Source of the DNA: Clostridiales bacterium DTU070 | Lineage (GTDB): Bacteria; Bacillota; Clostridia; DSM-8532 | DNA: 64,000 bases | Assembly (NCBI GenBank): GCA_001513105.1 | Contig: LFSH01000005.1 | Coordinates: 1 to 64,000, forward strand | Direction: 5' to 3' | Shown here: positions 14,247 through 61,733 of the stretch, piece by piece | How the letters are laid out: each line of letters begins with the position of its first letter | Numbering within the stretch: position 1 is the first letter of the stretch | Translations under genes and position numbers: made by a program | The notes under the pieces: generated by a model | The model's database searches: none | The model's input: only the letters and a program-made list of their open reading frames with translations | What the model was told of the DNA's origin: nothing

Positions 14247-14265
14247 TGTATTACGCCTAAAGTTT

Positions 14266-14297
14266 CCTTGCATTGCACAACATATGCAAGGACTTTT
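14266..14297 (+). terminator. Probable terminator after the M24 peptidase gene
   Basis: CCTTGCAT (14266-14273) pairs with ATGCAAGG (14284-14291) around a ten-base loop. The stem can extend with AAAGT/ACTTT across a small bulge. The T tract is short (ACTTTT), so efficiency is uncertain. Confidence 0.55.
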
Positions 14298-14421
14298 AAA
14301 GGCAGGCAATGCCGGAAACAGCTGCTTTGTTTCGGGGCTGATAAACTTCAGCCATTAATATGTTCTTGCCAAAGGCTGTGTTTTCATTTATTATATCAAT
14401 GGAAGCTTTTGCTTGAAATGC

Positions 14422-25948: not shown

Positions 25949-25974
25949 CCGGACCTGAACGGTCCGGTTTTTTA
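25949..25974 (+). terminator. Intrinsic terminator after the 91-aa gene
   Basis: CCGGACC (25949-25955) pairs with GGTCCGG (25961-25967) around TGAAC, followed by six T residues. Strong Rho-independent terminator. Confidence 0.9.
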
Positions 25975-25990
25975 TGTGCTCTGCCGTTAC

Positions 25991-26227
25991 GTTTGCAAGA
26001 GCTGCGCAGTTCAGCTCGGGCAAGCCGAAACTCGCAAAAATGCTTATAAAAAATATAGTATGAAGCATTTTTGCTCAAACAGTTGGCTTACTGGTCCTCG
26101 CTTCTTTTCGCCCATCTCTAAGCTGCACTACGCTAAAAGTTTCTTCGCATTTGCACGATATCTCCAAACAGTTGACCTGTATAGCTAAGATATCGTGCGA
26201 ATGCCCGGAAACAGTCGCTGAGATGGG
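25991..26227. repeat. Structured intergenic repeat, copy A
   Basis: Block 1 (25991-26164) is closely similar over its length to 57298-57468. Block 2 (26191-26219) matches 57267-57295 with one difference. Internal hairpins are evident: GAGCTG/CAGCTC (25999-26015), an AAAAATGCTT/AAGCATTTTT stem (26036-26070), and a long inverted repeat in which 26147-26162 pairs with 26189-26204. That last arm is framed by CCCATCTC (26111) and GAGATGGG (26220). No transposase or credible ORF is present. It occupies most of a 534-base gene-free gap; the remainder (26228-26435) shows nothing I can name. It may be a MITE-like element or an RNA. Confidence 0.8.
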
Positions 26228-26435
26228 AGATAATGCCAGCTTTTCTACAACGGAATAAACAGGAACTGTCCTTGCCAAGGAAAAGTATTGTATATTAAGC
26301 CAAAAATCTTTACAATATAATCATGACATTGTGTCCGCTAAAGTGGTACAGTTCATAATAGTGGTTATGATTCTGAAGTTAAGAGCAAACCGGAATGTAC
26401 CTGCACATATTATTCATGAAGGGGAGGTTGATGGA

Positions 26436-57205: not shown

Positions 57206-57266
57206 ATTTCCACCTGTTTATGCCAATGATATCTTCAAACACCTGATATTTTGTGGTAAAGAAAGC

Positions 57267-57525
57267 TATCGTGCGAATGCTCGGAAACAGTCGCTTCGTT
57301 TGCAAGAGCTGTGCGGTTCAGCTCGGGCAAGCCGAAACTCGCAAATATTCTTTAGAATAAAAAAAGTATGTAGCATTTTTGCTCCGTTGGCTTGCTTGTC
57401 CTCGCTTCTTTTTGCCCATCTCTATGCTGCACTTCGCTGAAAGTTTCCTCGCATTGCGCAATATCTCCTATTACTATTACTGTCATGCCCTCGTAAATAT
57501 CGTGCAATTCAGGGAAACATTCAGC
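57267..57525. repeat. Structured intergenic repeat, copy B
   Basis: Order is block 2 (57267-57295), block 1 (57298-57468), then a degenerate block 2 (57498-57525). Block 1 is closely similar to 25991-26164, keeping GAGCTG...CAGCTC, TCGGGCAAGCCGA and the CCCATCTC arm, but has a different AT hairpin (TATTC/GAATA) in the variable middle. It fills most of the 453-base gap after flhB. The rest of the gap shows nothing else apart from a weak GATATC-type hairpin at 57228-57253. Confidence 0.8.
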
Positions 57526-61475: not shown

Positions 61476-61496
61476 ATGGTTCAAATATAAGAAAAA

Positions 61497-61733
61497 AGCA
61501 GTGACCGGAACGAGTAGGCCGGAAGTCCCTTACAGAGAGCAAAGGTCAGGTGGAAGCTTTGCAGGTAATTCCCGCTGAAAATCCTCCGGTAGCTTCGAGC
61601 TGAAACTGCAAAGGAGTAGGTAAGACGGCAGGGGCCGTTATCCCCCGCACAAGTGACAGGCAGTTTGCCTGTAATTTGGGTGGTACCGCGTAGGTGTTAA
61701 TGCCTTTCGTCCCATTGGGATGAAAGGCTTTTT
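61497..61733 (+). promoter_or_regulatory. T-box riboswitch of ileS
   Basis: tRNA-sensing leader. The 14-base T-box TGGGTGGTACCGCG is at 61677-61690. A distal stem GCAAAG/CTTTGC encloses a loop with GGTG, and an AGAGAG bulge precedes it. The most likely specifier codon is AUC (61581-61583) after CTGAAA, which would read uncharged tRNA-Ile and agrees with the gene below. Stem III (ACGGC...GCCGT) and the antiterminator precede the terminator. Confidence 0.92.
61702..61733 (+). terminator. T-box conditional terminator
   Basis: GCCTTTCGTCCC (61702-61713) pairs with GGGATGAAAGGC (61717-61728), one G-T pair, then five T residues. It forms when tRNA-Ile is charged. Confidence 0.9.

Follow-up and report, generated by a model that had tools for sequence, protein, structure and literature searches.

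Copies in the window and their insertion sites

The window, that is the whole stretch of 64,000 nucleotides analysed here, belongs to the draft genome of Clostridiales bacterium DTU070 (G000; 2.89 Mb in 107 contigs) and carries three copies of a non-coding repeat, all described on the forward strand. Copy A (25985-26219, delimited by blastn, profile matches and fold) separates a small gene's terminator from a promoter-like sequence: the terminator-like hairpin of the upstream gene (25949-25976, +) borders it and the promoter-like GTATTGTATA...TTTACAATATAATCATGA (26285-26325, +) stands directly downstream. It consists of a core without left arm followed by a right arm, a linker and the next left arm, these last three forming a hairpin at 26139-26219, and an RNA model matches it at 25987-26127 with 150.9 bits. 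Copy B (57226-57520), between flhB and a radical-SAM gene, comprises a partial arm-linker-arm stretch (57226-57295), a full core (57296-57468) and a degenerate right arm-linker-left arm reaching 57520; it gave two profile hits (57226-57295 and 57296-57520) and an RNA model match at 57294-57431 (144.7 bits). The preliminary description had counted these two copies only, a number that is far too low, as the genome has at least 41 loci, including a third in the window (14247-14326; profile hit with E 4e-6, and sequence), a degenerate arm-linker-arm hairpin with no complete core.

The similarity between copies A and B is as it had been described. Block 1, common to both, shows 86% identity across about 176 nt (25990-26165 against 57297-57468, blastn), and the 29-base block 2 (26191-26219 against 57267-57295) has exactly one difference; local alignment of the two intergenic regions scores 129, against a shuffle maximum of 17 (n=200).

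Both sites are empty in three congeners (G001, G002 and G003). The promoter-like sequence downstream of copy A is kept in all three according to the empty-site comparison, and in G002, where the terminator-like hairpin is present without the element, only about 20 nt lead from the terminator to the promoter-like sequence. The space between a gene's 3' end or terminator and the promoter of the following gene tolerates such copies. No clean direct repeat that could be a target-site duplication was seen at the inspected copies, whose ends vary and are decayed. Two neighbouring features of the window deserve mention: the inverted GTATTGTATA ... TTTACAATATAATCATGA at 26285-26325 is promoter/operator-like, stands upstream of a DUF881 gene and is conserved in four congeners, and a T-box leader (RF00230, 125.9 bits) occupies 61492-61717.

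Searching the whole of G000 gave 96 matches, which, within the stretches read, cluster at 41 intergenic loci and include about 44 core units. Several contigs (for example C71, C31, C25 and C89) end in or at arrays, and the real number of loci is therefore probably higher than 41.

Unit, tandem arrays and fold

The basic unit is non-coding, about 205 nt long and made of arm, core and arm: its core, about 140 nt long and highly conserved, is enclosed by arms of 17-24 nt that are terminal inverted repeats, the right arm being complementary to the left. In G000 the order is left arm GATATCGTGCGAATGCTCGGAAAC, core, right arm GTTTCCTCGCATTGCACGATATC and a linker of about 26 nt, TCCAAACACTTGACCTGTAAAGTAAA, and profile and cyclic alignments give a repeat period of about 228. 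Element lengths range from 0.34 to 4.6 units, the longest arrays (about 4.6 units) being those of C102 and C36, and the ends are clustered, with a usual start at unit position 135-160 and a usual end at 227-17. A typical element is a right arm-linker-left arm followed by 0 to 4 cores, each with a right arm-linker-left arm after it, so that the complete cores (0 to 4 per element) lie between partial ends; copy B follows this pattern with one core, and copy A does so without the first part. This tandem make-up with partial ends explains the "permuted" order reported earlier (block 2-block 1-degenerate block 2 in copy B), and the arrays of period about 228 bear out the suggestion that copy B preserves the end of a tandem unit.

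From an alignment (A2) of 50 sequences, drawn from G000 and at least five related species, RNAalifold returned a single nested main structure, unbranched, with the helices P1 (the arms), P2 (GAGCTGTGCAGT/ACTGCACATCTC), P3 (GGCAAGCCGA/TCGGCTTGCT) and P4 (GCAAAAATGC/GCATTTTTGC). Its 40 pairs have 95.5% of cells paired, a share that drops to 35-43% when the 3' partners are slid by 1-3 columns. Changes on both sides of a pair were found in 152 cells, against 55 in shuffles, and affect 16 pairs, recurrently in the arms, P2 and P3, although kinship of the copies and amplification inflate such counts; the compensated arm changes (39 observed, 7 expected) are illustrative only, as this count mixes species and takes palindromic elements on both strands. 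When two full units of different genera were folded, each formed one rod (z -8.6 and -11.3). In most units the fold of the reverse complement is as good or better, and folding therefore favours neither strand, nor RNA over DNA.

Mean arm pairing is -19.0 for arms of the same unit, -17.1 for adjacent arms of neighbouring units and -15.3 for random arms; as pairing across the core is slightly better, the adjacent-arm hairpin was rejected as the selected unit. A pseudoknot between GTACAGT, in the loop of a GAGCT hairpin, and a distal ACTGTAC was also considered and is unneeded, because RNAalifold nests the same pairs in the long helix.

The hairpin drawn earlier for copy A (26147-26162 with 26189-26204) was recovered in its fold, and the CCCATCTC/GAGATGGG frame exists there but does not extend to the family, no other copy having GAGATGGG after it; CATCTC is part of a conserved helix with GAGCTG. 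In place of the local GAGCTG/CAGCTC and TCGG/CCGA stems, co-variation favours the long-range P2 and P3. The reading as a selected, MITE-like structure is well supported, by a genome-wide family, arrays of period about 228, co-varying helices and empty congener sites, but the helices drawn for it were mostly other than the conserved ones. Instead of only two copies without conserved structure, the outcome that the preliminary description had set against its own proposal, we found at least 41 loci and helices that co-vary.

Distribution and orientation

Among 32 genomes of the family the core is clear in seven, G000, G002, G006, G007, G008, G013 and G017 (6 of the 31 relatives), and G010 gave a single marginal hit. 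The carriers belong to genera g1, g4, g5 and g6, and the other genera of this set, like two of the four g1 genomes, have no repeat. A 24-nt core pattern compared with 84,980 species genomes matched only in Clostridia assemblies of the same circle, titled Clostridiaceae, Clostridiales DTU069 and Hungateiclostridiaceae; we read the isolate names of the carrier assemblies as pointing to an anaerobic-digester origin. Viral contigs, plasmids and phages gave zero matches and, in Rfam, no family scored above its gathering threshold.

In the tree, the G000 cores fall on one side of a branch with support 99/96, the G007 cores and the G006 cores each likewise fall on one side of a branch, and those of the three g6 species are intermixed. 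This grouping by genome indicates bursts in separate lineages, and the single clade of G000 copies, taken with the window sites empty in three congeners, indicates a recent spread in the G000 lineage. The G000 and g6 consensuses are 91% identical in the core and 61% in the arms, a comparison in which the similarity search favours the core. Relatives also have internal-deletion derivatives with intact arms, the g6 arms enclosing shortened interiors of 56, 79, 80, 82, 105 and 108 bp.

Several other elements were seen beside these copies. The three copies read in G006 (L036, L042 and L047) have an extra hairpin of about 65 nt at the same position of the core, and a glycine riboswitch aptamer (L042, 1245-1345) adjoins a repeat copy. 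Another structured repeat, larger than the hairpin element and reading GTCGCCC...CACCCGAACC...ACCCGC ... GCGGGTGGTTCGGGTG...GGGCGAC, occurs at L117, L092, L098 and L133 (G008/G013), with a unit of about 471 nt in L133, and often encloses the hairpin element in g6; the copy B site of G002 has a likely remnant of it. Downstream of the core copy of L092, the larger repeat has a single palindrome, CCTATTGTACAATAGTTC, in place of arm-core-arm, which marks an empty site or else a deletion between the arms.

In G000, 36 of 40 loci are oriented with the leading strand as given by GC skew (binomial p 2e-7, the loci not being fully independent), among them 9 of the 10 copies between divergent genes, and 20 of the 22 copies between tandem genes share the direction of these genes. 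This bias is partly confounded with gene direction and could reflect either how copies insert at the fork or selection; relatives showed no consistent orientation rule or bias. The enrichment of copies between divergent genes was not significant and was not retained.

Nature and spread of the repeat

The copies form a family with a common structure and a tandem make-up, which has been amplified in particular lineages and whose sites are empty in congeners. They are multiple, dispersed, free of ORFs and polymorphic for insertion, with inverted terminal repeats and a strong secondary structure, all as in MITEs, and their end modules enclose tandem inner modules in varying number, as in BOX. We consider it likely that they are small non-coding, non-autonomous, composite fold-back DNA repeats of the BOX/bcr kind, mobile or formerly mobile. 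The fold-back unit of left arm, core and right arm would pair into one rod-like hairpin and, in G000, would travel with the linker of about 26 nt, forming head-to-tail arrays whose length would shift, probably by recombination or slippage between direct repeats, to give 0 to 4 cores. Movement would occur in trans, through a postulated recombinase recognising the folded core, and would prefer one strand at the replication fork. Between genera, conservation is higher in the core than in the arms, whereas an ordinary MITE, being recognised at its ends, would show the opposite; this conservation of the core (with the linker in G000), while the arms change together as complements, could even suggest a core that spreads itself, either because a postulated recombinase reads its folded shape or because it is copied by way of an intermediate that is circular or concatemeric, but we hold this to be quite unlikely.

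As mobilisers, a Y1 transposase (PF01797), a reverse transcriptase, a TnpB-type protein (PF07282) and DDE_Tnp_1 were each rejected for lack of a match in G000; rve-type integrase genes exist there, but also in repeat-free genomes. G000 being a draft assembly, the mobiliser gene may have been missed. No ORF-bearing version occurs among the loci read, all G000 matches belonging to elements, and the search for an autonomous element through the arm pattern recovered only core-bearing copies, the 56-108-bp deletion derivatives and fragments. An autonomous element with the same ends is usual, though not obligatory, for a MITE.

The repeat could alternatively be a non-coding RNA family, its core selected as a folded RNA (for example a small RNA, or an mRNA-stabilising 3' UTR or leader) and duplicated because it is useful. 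The conservation of the core far above that of the arms and the co-variation of the helices agree with this, as do the frequent start of copies 0-60 nt from a stop codon and, in G000, their place on the strand of their neighbours. G-U outnumbers A-C in the consensus pairs (86 to 41), and one pair remains G-U in almost every copy, whatever the species, but this excess is partly built in, since the + strand served for choosing the pairs; its reverse complement has a fold at least as good in most units, and we do not take it as proof of an RNA strand. With no Rfam match, no orientation preference in relatives and a patchy presence that leaves two congeners without the repeat, an RNA family seems unlikely.

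A Y1 (HUH) transposase that moves the repeat in single-stranded form, in the manner of IS200/IS605 or REP, would fit the hairpin structure and, through lagging-strand targeting, the leading-strand orientation in G000, also between divergent genes; this is nevertheless very improbable, as G000 (99.95% complete) has no Y1_Tnp gene, the presence of Y1 and that of the repeat are unlinked across relatives, and related species lack a consistent bias. We also consider very improbable a spread and upkeep free of transposition, by replication slippage, palindrome template switching and recombination between existing copies: arms of the same unit match even where they differ from the family, as quasi-palindrome correction would give, and there are tandem arrays and mosaics between sub-types, but new lineage loci at sites empty in three congeners are left unexplained.

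To our knowledge, the origins of small interspersed repeats of bacteria are mostly unexplained outside REP/RAYT. The conserved core of the clostridial repeat, its changing yet complementary arms, its recent bursts in several genera and the lack of a common transposase among those searched make it a clean case for finding the mobilising mechanism. It also accounts for contig breaks in the metagenome-assembled genomes that carry it.

Among known systems, the HEARO/omega RNAs of IscB/TnpB elements are likewise structured, of about 200 nt and present in many ORF-free copies; the clostridial repeat differs in that Rfam gave no HEARO match, G000 has no TnpB-type protein (PF07282) and no adjoining ORF of a constant kind was seen. 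REP, BIME and REPIN sequences with TnpA-REP (RAYT) are also palindromic, intergenic and single or arrayed, but a REP is 20-40 nt long and alternates (PMC8266576, PMC3116915, PMC2817692), whereas the clostridial unit has about 205 nt and is arranged head-to-tail; membership is unsupported, as G000 has no such Y1 transposase (TnpA-REP; PF01797). The bcr1-bcr18 repeats of the Bacillus cereus group are likewise intergenic, MITE-like, structured and restricted to one bacterial group, with many copies per genome (PMC3446304), and 40-51% of the bcr copies are reported to be transcribed (PMC3446304 and references in it); what sets the clostridial repeat apart is its tandem arrays and co-varying arms. 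BOX of Streptococcus pneumoniae and S. suis (PMC3049150) is likewise an intergenic composite with end modules around variable tandem inner modules, the pneumococcal pattern boxA-(boxB)n-boxC being comparable to clostridial elements with 0 to 4 cores. Both fold into stem-loops and are nested with other repeats, and in both the end modules that enclose one and the same inner module differ between related species (PMC3049150). BOX has a proposed IS partner (PMC3049150), in contrast to the clostridial repeat, for which none was found in G000, and the likeness is one of organisation only, the inner module of the clostridial repeat being itself the conserved hairpin. By this analogy, we regard the clostridial hairpin repeat as a previously undescribed relative, in kind, of the BOX-like repeats.
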